NCBI GenBank assembly: GCA_020052375.1
Contig: JAGVPG010000033.1
Location: forward strand, 1-64,000
Source: Actinomycetota bacterium
GTDB lineage: Bacteria; Actinomycetota; JAHEXW01; JAGVPG01
DNA length: 64,000 nucleotides
Reading direction: 5' to 3'
How positions within the stretch are numbered: position 1 is the first letter of the stretch; each line of letters starts with the position of its first letter. Shown here piece after piece: positions 17,349 through 25,265 of the stretch. The notes under the pieces are model-generated. The model ran no database searches. It was not told where the DNA came from and saw only the letters and a list, made by a program, of their open reading frames with translations. The translations under genes and the position numbers were made by a program.

Positions 17349-18410
17349 TTGGCACTCGATCGGAACCGGTATCTTAGAGTCATGACTCTCATCCTGTCTT
17401 TGCCGGTCTTTTTCTCTCTTATAAGCGGCTGTGTCACAGAAAGGTCCGATATTCTTGGCTCTTTGCCCGTATTGATAAGCGCATCCGTCAATAGCAATCC
17501 GAAGATCGACGGCCTGGCGTCCGATGCCGTTTGGCAGGAAGCAACGGCTTTGAAGATCAAAACAACGGGCGGTCCTGAAGTCACGATGAAGTCGATCCAT
17601 ACGGATAACAGGATCTATGTCCTTGCGACCTGGGCTGACGCGACCAAAGACGATGTCGACGAGATATGGGACTTCGACGGAACAACGTGGAGGACGGGAA
17701 CGATAGACGATGCTTTCGCTCTGTTCTGGAACGAAGACGGAGCGATACCTGGGTTTGATGAGAAGGGATGCCAGGCGGTCTGTCATAATGAAGACGCCGA
17801 CGAGTCCAAATGGCGGATGTTCTTAACTTCCATCGATCAGAAAAAGATGGCCGACATCTGGGATATATCACTGGGGATAAGCAATATCCGGGGTTCGGTC
17901 AACGATTATGTGTTCGCCGTCGATCCTGCCTATCAGAAAAATCCGATGAACAACGAGCTTGTCTTAATAAGACAGCATGACGCTTTTACAAACCGCGCCC
18001 CGATCGTCCCTAACTACTGGATAGACCCGGCAGACGGGCAGAAGAAACCGAGATACCAGTATAAAGACGGCTTGACGGTCGATTCTACACCTTACCCGTT
18101 TGTCTATGAGGTCGAGGAGATCCGGGACTACACTTTATTCAAACCGGGAGCACGTCTGCCATACATGATCTTCTATCCGTTCGGCATGAAATGGGGCGGC
18201 AGCCGCGATGACATCACCGGCAAAGCGGTCTGGAACAAAGGCAAATGGACCGTCGAAATGGCAAGAAAACTGAAGACCGGGCATAAAGACGATATAGACT
18301 TCGCGCCGGCCGACGGCAAGAGCCACGTATACACGTTTGCCGTAGCAGTATTCGACCGGACGATAATAGGGCATAAGACGAGCAAACCGGTGAGGTTTGA
18401 GATCGAGTGA
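17349..18410 (+). CDS. Ethylbenzene-dehydrogenase-related haem-binding lipoprotein (copy 1)
   Basis: Lipobox LISGC; KSIHTDNRIYVLATWADATKDD; KGCQAVCH; TTG start with AAAGGAG. Confidence 0.8.
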   Translation: MALDRNRYLRVMTLILSLPVFFSLISGCVTERSDILGSLPVLISASVNSNPKIDGLASDAVWQEATALKIKTTGGPEVTMKSIHTDNRIYVLATWADATKDDVDEIWDFDGTTWRTGTIDDAFALFWNEDGAIPGFDEKGCQAVCHNEDADESKWRMFLTSIDQKKMADIWDISLGISNIRGSVNDYVFAVDPAYQKNPMNNELVLIRQHDAFTNRAPIVPNYWIDPADGQKKPRYQYKDGLTVDSTPYPFVYEVEEIRDYTLFKPGARLPYMIFYPFGMKWGGSRDDITGKAVWNKGKWTVEMARKLKTGHKDDIDFAPADGKSHVYTFAVAVFDRTIIGHKTSKPVRFEIE

Positions 18411-19567
18411 GGAAGCGAGGTAGCGAGGTAGTGGGGAAGAGAGGAAGCGAGATAGTACTGGTATTTGCGTTTTTAGTTGTTTTGATCGTTCTGCTTGCCG
18501 GATGCAACCAGCGTGAAAAAACCGTCAAGGTCAAGACAAAGAATGTAGTCAAAGCGGTATTTGTAGACAAAGCGCCGGAACTGGATGGGAAAAGCAACGA
18601 CGCGGTGTGGACAAAAGCGCCGGAATCCGTGATCACCTTGAAAGGCGGGACTGACGCGAGGATAAAGTCCGTCTATACGCAAAAGATGATCTACTTCCTG
18701 GTATCTTGGGACGACACGACTCCTCAAAGCGGCGTTCTCTGGTGGGAATATAACGGGACTGAGTGGCATCGCAATTACGATACGGACGACAAGGTCAGCT
18801 TCATCTGGAATATCGATCACTCGCTCCCGCTTTTTGACACTAAAGGATGCGAGGCCATTTGCCATCAGCTGCCCGATAGCGATCAGGCGTCGATGACTAT
18901 CACGGGCAATAAGACAAATGGAAAGCCATGGCCCGGCATTGACTGGAAGGGTGATGCGTGGAAGTGGGCGCCCGGTATCATGAACGAGAAAAACATCGTC
19001 GATGACGGTATTTTTGCCGCTCCAAGCGAGGCGAGGAAACGGCCGGAACTGACTACGGTTGTTGAAAGCAGACTGATCTTTGACGGCGGCGACTCCGGTA
19101 CCAAACAGTGGTTTACACGTAACCCTAACGCGGCCACCGAAGAAGAGAAAGCGCAAGATATCGAGAAGCCCGCCTACATGCCGAAGCTGGGATATGACCT
19201 TTCGAAAAACCCGTTTCCTAATCAGCGGGATATGATCCCAATCACCGACTACTCTGTCTTCAAAGCGGGTGACAAGCTGCCCATGATGTTGTATTTCGAC
19301 TTTACGAGTGAGAAGAACATAAAAGATTTTCCGGAAGGGAAACCGACCGGGAGCAGGGTAGATCTATCCGGTAAAGGCGTTTATGCTGAAACGACATACA
19401 CGCTGGAGTTTGGCCGCAAGCTCAATACTGGTCACGATGATGATGTACAGTTTCACCCGGAAGCAGACCGTACCGTTGCCGATAATATATTCGCCGTAGC
19501 GATATTTAACGACTCAAGGTTTAAGCATGCGATCAGCGGACCTGTGACACTGATCCTGGAACCATAG
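18407..19567 (+). CDS. Ethylbenzene-dehydrogenase-related haem-binding lipoprotein (copy 2)
   Basis: Lipobox LLAGC; KSVYTQKMIYFLVSWDDTTPQSG; KGCEAICH. Confidence 0.8.
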   Translation: MRKRGSEVVGKRGSEIVLVFAFLVVLIVLLAGCNQREKTVKVKTKNVVKAVFVDKAPELDGKSNDAVWTKAPESVITLKGGTDARIKSVYTQKMIYFLVSWDDTTPQSGVLWWEYNGTEWHRNYDTDDKVSFIWNIDHSLPLFDTKGCEAICHQLPDSDQASMTITGNKTNGKPWPGIDWKGDAWKWAPGIMNEKNIVDDGIFAAPSEARKRPELTTVVESRLIFDGGDSGTKQWFTRNPNAATEEEKAQDIEKPAYMPKLGYDLSKNPFPNQRDMIPITDYSVFKAGDKLPMMLYFDFTSEKNIKDFPEGKPTGSRVDLSGKGVYAETTYTLEFGRKLNTGHDDDVQFHPEADRTVADNIFAVAIFNDSRFKHAISGPVTLILEP

Positions 19568-19569
19568 AC

Positions 19570-20850
19570 ATGAAAAAGACGATCCTGCTTTACTGTCCGC
19601 CGCCGACGACCAATAAGCCGTCGACCAGGGCGCCGCTGGCTCTTCTGGCGGTATCGTCGATGCTCGTGGGTGACGACTATGAGATCGTGATCATGCCGCG
19701 GGACCCCGGGCAACACCGGCGGATATTCAGGGATTACATGGAGAAAGCCCTTGTCTACGGCGTATCCGTGATGACCGGTCCTCAAATACGACACGCCTTG
19801 AAGTCTTCGGCGGCGGCGCGCGAGGTGTTGCCGGATATGCCGATCATATGGGGCGGCTGGCATCCTACTATCTTTCCGGAGCAGGTGGCCGCCAGCCCTT
19901 ATGTCGATATAGCCGTCACCGGCCAGGGAGAGCGCGTTTTTACGACGATAGTAGACGACCTTAGCAAAGGAAGACACGTAAAAAAAACGCTCCAGACGGC
20001 GCCGGGCGGTTTTGTCGATATAAACCGATTTCCGAGTCTACCGTATGAGATACTGAACATCGAGGACTATGTTTTCAGTGCCGAGATGGGCTCACGGACG
20101 ATAAACTACGTGTCCAGCAGAGGTTGCCCTCGCAACTGCTCGTACTGTGCTCAACAACTGGTAAGCGGCGGCAGGTGGTACGGGCTAAGTCCCGACCGGA
20201 TGATCCGGGATGTGGAGAGACTCAAGCGACGCTATGCTATCGACGGCATCCTGTTCGATGACGCGAACTTCTTCGTTGACCTAGATAGAGTCCACGATTT
20301 TGCTGAGTTGCTGGTCGAGAAGCGTATAAAGATCGGATGGGGGATGGCGAACGGGCGGCTTGAAGACTTGAAGCGCGCGGGCGATTCTTTCTGGAGACTG
20401 ATGAATCTGAGCGGGATGAAAAGCGTTTTCGTAGGTGTGGAACCGCGCTGCGGTGAATTGACGCATAGCGCTGGAAAGACATCGGGTACGCTGTTCGAAG
20501 ACAGCGTCTCCCTGGCTAAAAAGACCGCCGAAGCCGGTATAACTCTGAAACTCTCTTTGCTGGTCGGTTTTCCACCCATCGGAAAGGCTATCGTATCATT
20601 CGACGAGGAGCTTGAAGAGGCGCGGTCTTTCCTCCAGGGTTGCGCCGGTGAGAGTGACAAGTTTAAGGGCGAGGTATCGATGTTCCTGCCTTTTCCGCAT
20701 GCGCCCCTGTATAAAGCGGCCATCGACCATGGCCTTAAAGTGCCGGAAGACCTCGAGGGATGGGCGGACTGGATCCCGGACAAGACGGAGACGCCATGGC
20801 TGCCGGCGGGCGCGTTAAAGAAGATCGGGGAGATCAATGAGAAGTTTTAA
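19570..20850 (+). CDS. B12-binding-domain radical SAM protein
   Basis: GCPRNCSYC (CX3CX2C); N-terminal IIWGGWHPTIFPEQVAASPYVDIAVTGQGE. Confidence 0.9.
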   Translation: MKKTILLYCPPPTTNKPSTRAPLALLAVSSMLVGDDYEIVIMPRDPGQHRRIFRDYMEKALVYGVSVMTGPQIRHALKSSAAAREVLPDMPIIWGGWHPTIFPEQVAASPYVDIAVTGQGERVFTTIVDDLSKGRHVKKTLQTAPGGFVDINRFPSLPYEILNIEDYVFSAEMGSRTINYVSSRGCPRNCSYCAQQLVSGGRWYGLSPDRMIRDVERLKRRYAIDGILFDDANFFVDLDRVHDFAELLVEKRIKIGWGMANGRLEDLKRAGDSFWRLMNLSGMKSVFVGVEPRCGELTHSAGKTSGTLFEDSVSLAKKTAEAGITLKLSLLVGFPPIGKAIVSFDEELEEARSFLQGCAGESDKFKGEVSMFLPFPHAPLYKAAIDHGLKVPEDLEGWADWIPDKTETPWLPAGALKKIGEINEKF

Positions 20851-21862
20851 GATAGTGTTGTCCGTCCTTATCTGTATCACGCTGGCTGCCGGTATATTCT
20901 TAGCGGGATGTACTACGTCCGGCAAGCCGCGTACGAAGCTCGTCGTCCCGTCTTCTTTCACGGATGAGAAGATGAAGCCCGACGGCCATGCCGATGAAAA
21001 GATATGGAAGAAGATAAAACCGGCAAAACTGCCGACCAAGGGCGGCCCGGATGTATTTATGAGATCCGTCCATACGGATACTGATATATATTTTCTGATC
21101 GAATGGGCCGACGCGACAAAGGAGGACATCTCGAAGGTCTGGGAATTCGATGGCACCCGCTGGAAGAATGGTCCGGACCAGGATAAACTATCGATCCTTT
21201 GGGACAAGAGCGACTCGGTCGCCTATTTCGATATAAAAGGATGCGAAGCCGTTTGCCATACCGAGGATCCGGATGCAGACAAGTGGTATATGGCCACGAA
21301 CGGCCGGCGCGAAAAGACCGATCTGTGGTTTTGGATGGCAGGGATAGGCAACGTATACGGTTTCGTAAACGACAGGTTTCTGGATGATACCATCGACCCC
21401 ACGTTGCCGAAAGCAGCCCGAAAGCAGGACCGGGGAGAGGTCGGCTTCTTAAAGAACGGGTATAAAGCGCCGGTGGAAAAGATAGCGCCGACGAGGCCGA
21501 CAAAAAAGCTGGTCGAAGGGCTGACGGTGGAGTCTACACCATATCCGACAATCGATCAGATGGAGGATATAACCTCATACAGACAGTTCAAACCCGGTGA
21601 CAAGGAACCGTTCATCTATTTCTACGGCCCACCCACAGATAGCCAAGCGGACGTCTTCGGCAGGGCGAACTGGAAAGACGGCAAGTGGACTCTGGAAATG
21701 GGGCGGAAGCTTAACACCGGGCACAAGGACGATATGCCGTTCTTCGTCGACAGATCCGGTCCGAAGTTCTATATGTTCGGGCTGATGGTATCGGACCATA
21801 CGGAGCCGCCTCCGATAAAACATTACACAAGTCCTCCTGTTTCTTTGCGGATCGACCCCTAA
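20837..21862 (+). CDS. Ethylbenzene-dehydrogenase-related haem-binding lipoprotein (copy 3)
   Basis: Lipobox FLAGC; KGCEAVCH; strong similarity to copy 1. Confidence 0.8.
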   Translation: MRSFKIVLSVLICITLAAGIFLAGCTTSGKPRTKLVVPSSFTDEKMKPDGHADEKIWKKIKPAKLPTKGGPDVFMRSVHTDTDIYFLIEWADATKEDISKVWEFDGTRWKNGPDQDKLSILWDKSDSVAYFDIKGCEAVCHTEDPDADKWYMATNGRREKTDLWFWMAGIGNVYGFVNDRFLDDTIDPTLPKAARKQDRGEVGFLKNGYKAPVEKIAPTRPTKKLVEGLTVESTPYPTIDQMEDITSYRQFKPGDKEPFIYFYGPPTDSQADVFGRANWKDGKWTLEMGRKLNTGHKDDMPFFVDRSGPKFYMFGLMVSDHTEPPPIKHYTSPPVSLRIDP

Positions 21863-21874
21863 AAATAGTATAAT

Positions 21875-22576
21875 GTGAACGAAATCTCTAACCAAAAAAC
21901 GGGGGACTCTTTTTCTTTGCTCGAACACGTGATTAAAGACCTAAAGTCGATACAAGACCTCGTCCTGGTCCAAATCCGTTCGTCTTCCGATTCAATGGAT
22001 GATGATATCAGGATCATAAAAGACGGCCGTAGTGCCTGTGCTCTGCTTCTTCTTTTGACGGCCGGGCTCGGCTCTTATGATCTGGACAGGATAAAACCGG
22101 TCGGCGTGGCTCTGGAATTACTGAACCTCGGCATTAAAAAGCATTTTTCAAAAGATTCGATAGAGAATATGGGTCTGATCGTGTCGGACCATTATTTTGC
22201 CACAGCCCTGAACATAGTGGTCAAACTGGACGACAACTGGATCGTCGGGCGGTTGAGCGACGCTCTGCAGGAAGTGGCGGATGGCCAGGTGGTCAAGGAT
22301 TACTACTCCGGGCTTAAGAGCCGGTGTGCGTTCTACCAGGCGGCCTGCGATATCGGAGCCAGGTCTTCCGGGCTTCCGCGGACGCTTCGTGAAGCGGCGC
22401 TGGAATTCAGTCTTCGCCTAGGCATGGCTATGGAGGCACGGAACGAGATGTATGTACCCCAACTTGAACTTGCTGATCTTGTCAAGAAGGCATATAATGC
22501 ATTAACTGAGCTGCCGGCGCCGGCAGTCTCTGATCGTATCAAGGAGGTCACTGATGCCGTCGTTTTCTCGCAATAG
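21875..22576 (+). CDS. Degenerate polyprenyl-synthetase-fold protein lacking both Asp-rich motifs
   Basis: Collinear with 24294-25265 product (GLGSYDLDRIKPVGVALELL vs GQAGRYDLSKLMPAALAVELL) but no DDxxD; GTG start. Confidence 0.7.
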   Translation: MNEISNQKTGDSFSLLEHVIKDLKSIQDLVLVQIRSSSDSMDDDIRIIKDGRSACALLLLLTAGLGSYDLDRIKPVGVALELLNLGIKKHFSKDSIENMGLIVSDHYFATALNIVVKLDDNWIVGRLSDALQEVADGQVVKDYYSGLKSRCAFYQAACDIGARSSGLPRTLREAALEFSLRLGMAMEARNEMYVPQLELADLVKKAYNALTELPAPAVSDRIKEVTDAVVFSQ

Positions 22577-24293
22577 ACCGGATCTGATCCTGCTGCACGC
22601 ACCAAGCGTTTATGATTTTAGAAAACGGTCTATAGTCTACGGACCTGTCAGTGATCTGGTCCCCTCGACACCGATCTTCGAGATGTATCCGGTCGGCTTC
22701 TCGAGTATTGCCAGTTACATGAAGAAGCACGGTTATAATGTGCGGATCATCAACCTCGCCTTGAAGATGCTTCTAAATCCCAAATTTGATGTGGAGAAGC
22801 AGATCAAGAAGCTAAAACCGAAGATGTTCGGGATAGATCTGCATTGGATGCCTCATTGCCACGGATCTGTCGAGATAGCCCGGCTGGTTAAAAAGTACCA
22901 TCCGGATATCCCGGTCATATTCGGCGGATTCTCTTCAACCTTCTTCCATAAGGAGCTTATCGAATACCCGGAGATAGATTTCGTCATGCGGGGCGATACG
23001 ACGGAAGAGCCTATACGCATGCTGTTCGATATCATGAATAACGGCCGGGATTATTCAAAAGTCCCCAACTTGACGTGGAAAGAGAACGGGACTGTTCATG
23101 AGAATGAACTCTCGCACGTCCCGGTGAATCTGGATGGTCTGGATCTGGGATACAAAGAAGTCGTCCGGTCCGTTTGGCGGGACATGGATTTTTCCGGCGT
23201 GATGCCTTTTCATGATTGGATCCGCTATCCGATCATGGCGACGTTCGCCTGCCGCGGCTGCAACTGCAACTGCGTGTTCTGCGGCGGTTCCAACTACTGT
23301 TTCAACAACAGCATGAAACGCAAGAAGACGGCCTATCGTAGTCCTGAAGCGCTGGTCGAAGAGGCTAAGAATATATCGCGCTTATGCCGTGGTCCGATCT
23401 TTATGATCGGCGATGTCCATATCATGGGACGGGAATACGCGGAAGCGGTGATAAAGGGGCTGGCTAAGGAGAAGATAAAGAATAAGATCATCTTCGAGTT
23501 TTTTGTGCCTCCGGATAAAGACTTTTTTGACCTGGTCGACGACAATCTGACCGACTACAGTTATGAGATGTCGCTCGAGTCGCATGACGAAGAGGTGCGG
23601 AAGGCGGTCGGTAAAGGATACAGCAACACCGAGATCGAAGAGGCCATCAAGAACGCGTTATCCCATGAGAATTGTGAGCGGTTCGATCTATATTTCCTGG
23701 TCGGCCTGCCTAAGCAGACTTATCAAAAAGCCATGGATGTGGTCGAGTATTGCCGTAAGCTATACGCTTCCGTCGGTAACGATAAACGGCTTCTGACATT
23801 CGTCTCACCGCTGGCTCCGTTCCTTGATCCGGGCAGTAAAGGATTCACGAACCCGGATGAGGTCGGTTACCGTCTGTTCTACAAGACTCTTGAGGAACAC
23901 CGGCAGGCGCTTCTTAAACCGAGCTGGAAGTACATCTTGAACTATGAGACCGAGTGGATGACGCGTGACGAGATCGTCGATGTCACATATGATAGCGCTC
24001 TCGGCCTGAATGCCGTAAAACGGGACATCGGAGCAATCGACAAGAAGACGGCTGACATAACTGAAGACAGGATAATAAAGGCAAAGCGCATAATGGAACA
24101 GGTGGATGAGATAATCAAGGAATATCCGCCGGAAGAGGTGGACGCTCGCCTTTTCGAGCTTAAACACGAGGTCGACAACTCGAGTATGTCGACAGTATGT
24201 GAGAAACGCGAACTCGAATGGCCGATAGGCCTGAAGATGTTCAACTTCAAGATGCTTGAGGTAGCGAAGATCCTCATAAACCGGGGTAGTTAA
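22554..24293 (+). CDS. B12-binding-domain radical SAM protein, Cys-dense cluster site
   Basis: CRGCNCNCVFC contains CX3CX2C; FGGFSSTFFHKELIEYPEIDFVMRGDTTEEP. Confidence 0.9.
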   Translation: MPSFSRNRPDLILLHAPSVYDFRKRSIVYGPVSDLVPSTPIFEMYPVGFSSIASYMKKHGYNVRIINLALKMLLNPKFDVEKQIKKLKPKMFGIDLHWMPHCHGSVEIARLVKKYHPDIPVIFGGFSSTFFHKELIEYPEIDFVMRGDTTEEPIRMLFDIMNNGRDYSKVPNLTWKENGTVHENELSHVPVNLDGLDLGYKEVVRSVWRDMDFSGVMPFHDWIRYPIMATFACRGCNCNCVFCGGSNYCFNNSMKRKKTAYRSPEALVEEAKNISRLCRGPIFMIGDVHIMGREYAEAVIKGLAKEKIKNKIIFEFFVPPDKDFFDLVDDNLTDYSYEMSLESHDEEVRKAVGKGYSNTEIEEAIKNALSHENCERFDLYFLVGLPKQTYQKAMDVVEYCRKLYASVGNDKRLLTFVSPLAPFLDPGSKGFTNPDEVGYRLFYKTLEEHRQALLKPSWKYILNYETEWMTRDEIVDVTYDSALGLNAVKRDIGAIDKKTADITEDRIIKAKRIMEQVDEIIKEYPPEEVDARLFELKHEVDNSSMSTVCEKRELEWPIGLKMFNFKMLEVAKILINRGS

Positions 24294-25265
24294 TTGCAGC
24301 GTAAGTCCTATCCGATATCCCAGACGATCCTAACGGACCTTGCCAAAGTAGACACCGCTCTCAAAGAAGAACTTCACCGTTATAACGGTGCTTTGCAGGA
24401 GGCGGCCTCCCTTACCGTGAAAGCCGGCGGAAAAAGGCTCAGGCCGGCGCTTGTCCTGATCTGCGGGCAAGCCGGTCGGTATGACCTTAGTAAGCTGATG
24501 CCGGCGGCTTTAGCGGTCGAACTTTTGCATACGGCTACGCTTGTCCACGATGACGTATTGGATGTGAATCCTCTGCGACGGGGGCTGGAAACCGTGAATG
24601 CCAGGTGGGGATCCAAGACAGCCATCGCGACGGGGGATATGCTTCTGGGCAAGTCATTCAGCTTGATGAGCGGATCGATGAGTCCGGAGGCTGTAAAGGT
24701 GCTGGCCGAAGCCGCTCTAGACTTGAGCGCGGGTGAGATGATGCAGCAGCGATCGGTAAGAGAGCCGGATACGGGCGTAGATGAATATCTTGAAAGAGTC
24801 AGGCTTAAGACTGCTGTCTTGTTCAAAGCGAGTTGTTTCTTAGGGGTTTCTGTATCGGGAGCCGATACTATGACTGCCGAAGCGCTGGGCCGATATGGAG
24901 AACATCTGGGGATGGCGTTCCAGATCTTTGACGATGTTCTGGATATCGTGGCCGATGAGGAGATACTGGGCAAACCGGTCGGCGGGGACTTAAGAGACGG
25001 GACACCGACGTACCCGGTGATCAGCGCGTTGGGAAAAAACGGCTCTGACGTTCTACATAAGATCATGACCTGCGAGGAACCCGATGAACTCGATGTCCAG
25101 GCATCACTCGGATTCATAAAACAATGCGGTGCTATCGAAGAATCGCGGGAGTTGGCAAAGTCATATATAGATAAGTCATATACGGTGATCGAGGAGATCT
25201 CGAACAAAGGACTGAAACAGGAACTTCGTGACGTAGGACAATTCGTGATAGACCGGTATAATTGA
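24294..25265 (+). CDS. Polyprenyl diphosphate synthase
   Basis: GGKRLRP, LVHDDVLD, GDMLLGKSF, FDDVLD motifs. Confidence 0.92.
   Translation: MQRKSYPISQTILTDLAKVDTALKEELHRYNGALQEAASLTVKAGGKRLRPALVLICGQAGRYDLSKLMPAALAVELLHTATLVHDDVLDVNPLRRGLETVNARWGSKTAIATGDMLLGKSFSLMSGSMSPEAVKVLAEAALDLSAGEMMQQRSVREPDTGVDEYLERVRLKTAVLFKASCFLGVSVSGADTMTAEALGRYGEHLGMAFQIFDDVLDIVADEEILGKPVGGDLRDGTPTYPVISALGKNGSDVLHKIMTCEEPDELDVQASLGFIKQCGAIEESRELAKSYIDKSYTVIEEISNKGLKQELRDVGQFVIDRYN

Follow-up and report, generated by a model that had tools for sequence, protein, structure and literature searches.

A probable non-catalytic partner subunit encoded upstream of a HepT-like polyprenyl diphosphate synthase in an Actinomycetota bacterium

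The window analyzed here is a 64,000-nucleotide stretch of an Actinomycetota bacterium genome (contig JAGVPG010000033.1, positions 1 to 64,000). On its forward strand, a gene with a GTG start (21875..22576) encodes a 233-aa truncated PF00348-like homologue without DDxxD motifs, which we describe as a putative non-catalytic small subunit. The next gene (22554..24293, forward strand) encodes a 579-aa B12-binding/radical SAM protein matching TIGR04190 (678.6 bits; cut-off 500), and its first 23 bases are shared with the 3′ end of the preceding gene. It is followed by a gene with a TTG start (24294..25265, forward strand) for a 323-aa HepT-like long-chain polyprenyl diphosphate synthase (PF00348, E = 9e-67), the candidate catalytic large subunit. 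A previous sequence-only reading of this DNA had named the first and last of these open reading frames, and both are present at these coordinates. It had also placed the 233-aa gene two genes away from the synthase, and this spacing needs correcting, as the TIGR04190 gene is the single gene that intervenes. Directly 5′ of the small-subunit gene are three paralogous ethylbenzene-dehydrogenase-type (EB_dh, PF09459) haem-domain proteins (17349-18410, 18407-19567 and 20837-21862), with a second B12/radical-SAM gene among them (19570-20850).

The 233-aa and 323-aa proteins resemble each other more than by chance. A two-sequence BLASTP comparison gave E = 2e-4 with 20% identity over 81 aa, and the 233-aa protein has no match at all in Pfam; for PF00348 specifically, the best value among the eight small proteins scanned was E = 0.029, from one of them. 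By itself the 233-aa protein is matched by NCBIfam TIGR02748 (HepT, component II of heptaprenyl diphosphate synthase) at E = 7.3e-9. Profiles extend this further, with a profile of 23 small proteins aligning to a profile of 11 synthases at E = 5.8e-24 over 183 collinear columns, and a profile of eight small proteins matching the catalytic chains of HepT (9kp1_B, E = 1.4e-7) and HexB (3aqb_B, E = 3.5e-6) over most of the length. The sequence-only reading had aligned the two window proteins by eye, and the profile alignment reproduces its pairs: GLGSYDLDRIKPVGVALELL with GQAGRYDLSKLMPAALAVELL, SDHYFATAL with GDMLLGKSF, and LRLGMAMEARN with EHLGMAFQIFD. Scanning the genome contigs with the single protein returned no relatives of the 233-aa protein. 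The alignment of 23 small proteins offers no stretch of sufficient conservation to scan with, and the scan for relatives used the synthase alignment as query. With detectable homology to trans-prenyl synthases, the 233-aa protein can be assigned from its sequence as a member of the isoprenoid synthase (PF00348) superfamily.

When 23 small and 16 large proteins are aligned together, the GGKRLRP motif, both DDxxD motifs and RRG are kept in all 16 large proteins and lost in all 23 small ones. In the window protein the first Asp-rich motif changes from HDDVLD to HFSKD, and the 15-residue gap that comes next takes RRG with it; the second motif changes from FDDVLD to RNEMYV, and beyond it the protein lacks about 65 more residues. 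The loss of both Asp-rich motifs claimed earlier is thus borne out, and extends to RRG, GGKRLRP and the region after the second motif. Nearly all of the proteins retain the His before the first motif, the Glu of the ELL helix and the Asp of the (G/A/S)D helix. With all the examined motifs for binding substrate and Mg gone, the 233-aa protein would be excluded from catalysis by the ordinary mechanism.

A structure prediction had been proposed as a check, and an isoprenoid-synthase fold was indeed predicted rather than absent. AlphaFold2 with a 30-sequence alignment gave an all-helical model of the 233-aa protein (pLDDT 84, pTM 0.83); this alignment combined the window proteins with loci from the genome-contig scan and included catalytic paralogues, which could steer the model. 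The 50 Foldseek matches listed were without exception isoprenoid synthases, among them HepT, HexB and the entry for the mint heterotetramer, with TM-scores by query length of 0.55-0.77. A model built solely from seven small subunits had low confidence (pLDDT 49), with the order of helices nearly unchanged from the 30-sequence model. Its Foldseek search again returned isoprenoid synthases, with HepS (9kp1_A) among the matches, and it agrees weakly with the same fold. We predict that the 233-aa protein has the all-helical isoprenoid-synthase fold.

To place the window in a wider setting, we searched 61 genomes around the window's own, with relatives in several families, and then 397 genomes of the phylum Actinomycetota together with the DNA of their loci. 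Small-subunit relatives are spread across the phylum and are 19-34% identical to the window protein. A pair was counted when a short member of 134-278 aa occurred with a full-length synthase, and in 33 of 33 genomes with both genes readable on one stretch the small gene precedes the synthase gene on the same strand, at distances from overlapping to about 6 kb. Coordinates in two genomes beyond these (G223 and G266) show the same arrangement, and in another two (G233 and G255) no partner synthase was found near the small gene. Some pairs in the phylum have 63% (small) and 70% (large) identity to Rubrobacter. Rubrobacter-like small subunits (L062, L063, L071, L089, L091 and L094) are only about 145-158 aa long, with little beyond the central helices. 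At the other end, three small subunits (L057 7593-8264, L058 3935-4771 and L061 5246-6055) reach 80-88 bits against the synthase profile and 130-150 against the small one, and by their sequences they look like intermediates between a dead and a catalytic subunit.

Truncation, the loss of all catalytic motifs and the low identity among relatives are also what a decaying, functionless duplicate of the synthase would leave behind. Pairwise dN/dS, however, is 0.13-0.45 for the small genes, indicating purifying selection in every pair tested, their open reading frames and fixed position are kept across many families, and the small subunits form one well-supported group in a tree. We therefore rejected the pseudogene reading on the constraint shown by dN/dS, and give it next to no chance of being correct. 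Partner synthases have dN/dS values of 0.06-0.16, making those of the small genes 1.1 to about 8 times higher. The small gene is not a pseudogene; purifying selection acts on it, though more loosely than on its partner, as would be expected for a subunit without catalytic function.

Another possibility is that the small protein partners the TIGR04190 B12/radical-SAM enzyme, for example by binding its prenylated substrate, instead of the synthase. The two genes overlap in the window and are also next to each other in at least 12 relatives, but many genomes have the small and large genes adjacent with no TIGR04190 gene between them (L016-L018, L020 and L064-L072), and TIGR04190 is also present in many genomes in which the search found no small subunit, making this partnership very improbable. 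TIGR04190 itself is a Ta0216-type B12-binding radical-SAM family of unknown function. In the window and in those relatives (including L014, L015, L019, L056-L061 and L073), its gene sits between those for the two synthase subunits, and it often adjoins MenG; the protein could be a tailoring enzyme, such as a C-methylase, of the quinone or prenyl chain.

The surroundings of the synthase gene pair point to menaquinone. MenG/UbiE lies between or beside the small and large genes in several families, and in Rubrobacter MAGs (L089 and L094) the order is small-UbiD-UbiA-UbiX-MenG-large-MqnE, with MqnC slightly further on. In the window's genome, MqnE, MqnC, MqnA, UbiX, UbiA and UbiD are together on one contig (C23) and MenG is on another (C9), so the genome has the futalosine menaquinone pathway. 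Only two PF00348 enzymes are found in this genome, the window's synthase and one of FPP type, which leaves the window's pair as the sole candidate found to make the long quinone tail. A deaminase-type amidohydrolase is encoded beside or downstream of the large-subunit gene in more than 20 loci (e.g., L018 5015-6364), with its best scores to 5′-deoxyadenosine deaminase models and a weaker one to aminofutalosine deaminase; this enzyme could carry out the aminofutalosine deaminase step of the futalosine pathway.

A short homologue without DDxxD that is encoded with a HepT-type synthase fits, as far as its sequence indicates, the functional class of component I. We consider it very probable that the 233-aa protein is the non-catalytic component I, and the 323-aa protein the catalytic component II, of a heterodimeric all-trans long-chain polyprenyl diphosphate synthase for menaquinone. 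The sequence-only reading had proposed a dead paralogue acting with an intact synthase, and this is supported by computed evidence: homology and motif loss, a modelled isoprenoid-synthase fold, the small-then-large gene order, linkage to menaquinone operons, and purifying selection. For physical interaction the argument is one of analogy, and it is from HepS/HepT and HexA/HexB that we infer that the 233-aa protein forms a complex with the synthase, is required for its activity and controls chain length. By that analogy, the small subunit would replace one half of the usual homodimer, would be needed to keep the large subunit active, and would line the far end of the product tunnel, setting a chain length of about C30-C40. 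A UbiA prenyltransferase would then attach the polyprenyl chain to the futalosine-pathway precursor, leading to menaquinone. Some observations count against a heterodimer: the TIGR04190 gene separates the small and large genes in the window, so that they are not immediate neighbours; the 233-aa protein has neither a Pfam match nor a score reaching the PF07307 cut-off; and dN/dS of the small genes is above that of their partners.

Plant small subunits act as modifiers of active GGPP synthases, shifting chain length or flux. The actinobacterial large subunit could likewise be an active homodimer with the small protein as an optional modifier, and two observations agree with this: the large subunit retains every catalytic residue examined and is placed among PF00348 synthases in a tree, and small subunits diverge faster than large ones. 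However, because the pairing is fixed in 33 of 33 genomes and the operon position resembles that of HepS, an obligate partnership is suggested, and in the known bacterial pairs the active enzyme is made up of two subunits (PMC7839719). We regard the optional modifier as improbable, and the obligate heterodimer remains our preferred reading. If this is correct, the neighbouring synthase, which is usually annotated alone, may be inactive or yield the wrong chain length without its small subunit, and a likely function can be assigned to an unannotated protein family spread over the whole phylum.

The tree, built from 61 proteins, has the actinobacterial small subunits on one side of a branch (99/100), with the Desulfotomaculum type (98/86) and HepS (100/100) each forming its own group. 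A single clade of all small subunits was not rejected (p-AU 0.45), and long branches make either reading unsafe. It is possible, if somewhat doubtful, that the actinobacterial small subunits come from their own duplication of a HepT-like synthase, independent of HepS and HexA of Bacillota, in which case bacterial heterodimeric prenyl synthases would have arisen convergently. If so, the three intermediate-like small subunits described above would make it possible to retrace how a catalytic subunit became a dead one. Small subunits range in steps from near-catalytic forms to very short ones (~145 aa), and with this gradation the evolution from homodimer to obligate heteromer becomes testable. 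What is new here is a divergent small-subunit family, recognised as such by neither Pfam nor NCBIfam and failing PF07307, that may have arisen separately. Our literature search found no paper on an actinobacterial small-subunit family, although this does not prove that there is none.

Heterodimers of this build are already known from bacteria. HexA/HexB of Micrococcus luteus and HepS/HepT of Bacillus are established as having a non-catalytic small subunit, and HexA is proposed to be part of a molecular ruler with HexB that helps set product length (PMC7839719). The expectation in the sequence-only reading that a bacterial equivalent of plant small subunits would be unusual does not hold, given these two pairs (9kp1 and 3aqb) and the small-upstream arrangement that is widespread in the phylum. 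For comparison we used the structures 9kp1 (HepS/HepT, with HepS as 9kp1_A and HepT as 9kp1_B) and 3aqb (HexA/HexB of M. luteus B-P 26); the HepS sequence in the profile comparison and tree is identical to 9kp1_A over all 238 residues.

The mint GPPS small subunit (3oab_B), whose entry was found by Foldseek, is likewise inactive, has no DDxxD and partners an active synthase of the plant GPP/GGPP type. It belongs to a different pathway, however, and did not come up by sequence; we rejected a plant-type small subunit, as the window protein has no CxxxC (Cys only at 55, 151 and 158). Among bacterial systems, M. luteus B-P 26 HexB, the catalytic subunit, is matched by the small-family profile (E = 3.5e-6), and HexA was matched neither by sequence nor among the Foldseek matches listed.

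HepS of B. subtilis (component 1, GerCA, PF07307) resembles the window protein in being a small, non-catalytic partner whose gene lies upstream of that for a HepT-type synthase. MenG lies between the subunit genes in Bacillus relatives (hepS-menG-hepT) as it does in several relatives of the window, and the order HepS-MenG-HepT was read directly in Peribacillus and Alicyclobacillus. The low-confidence small-only model suggests, by Foldseek, that HepS (9kp1_A) has the same fold as the window family. In sequence, the window protein resembles the catalytic subunit far more than HepS does. The 23-protein small profile matched B. subtilis HepS weakly in a single comparison (32.7% probability, E = 5e-4), aligning SDHYF with the GDYF central helix, and the gathering cut-off of PF07307 (HepS, HEPPP_synt_1) was reached in none of the 61 genomes, the window's included. 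Small subunits of the Desulfotomaculum/Heliobacterium type (L159, L160, L163 and L164), 255-274 aa long, come from genomes that also encode a HepT-like synthase. They have matches to the small profile (best 2e-15) as well as to that of the synthases (best 1.5e-27), and one of them (L159) passes PF07307, unlike the window protein. In similarity searches, these small subunits of Desulfotomaculum-like Bacillota also match HepS and bridge it and the window family.
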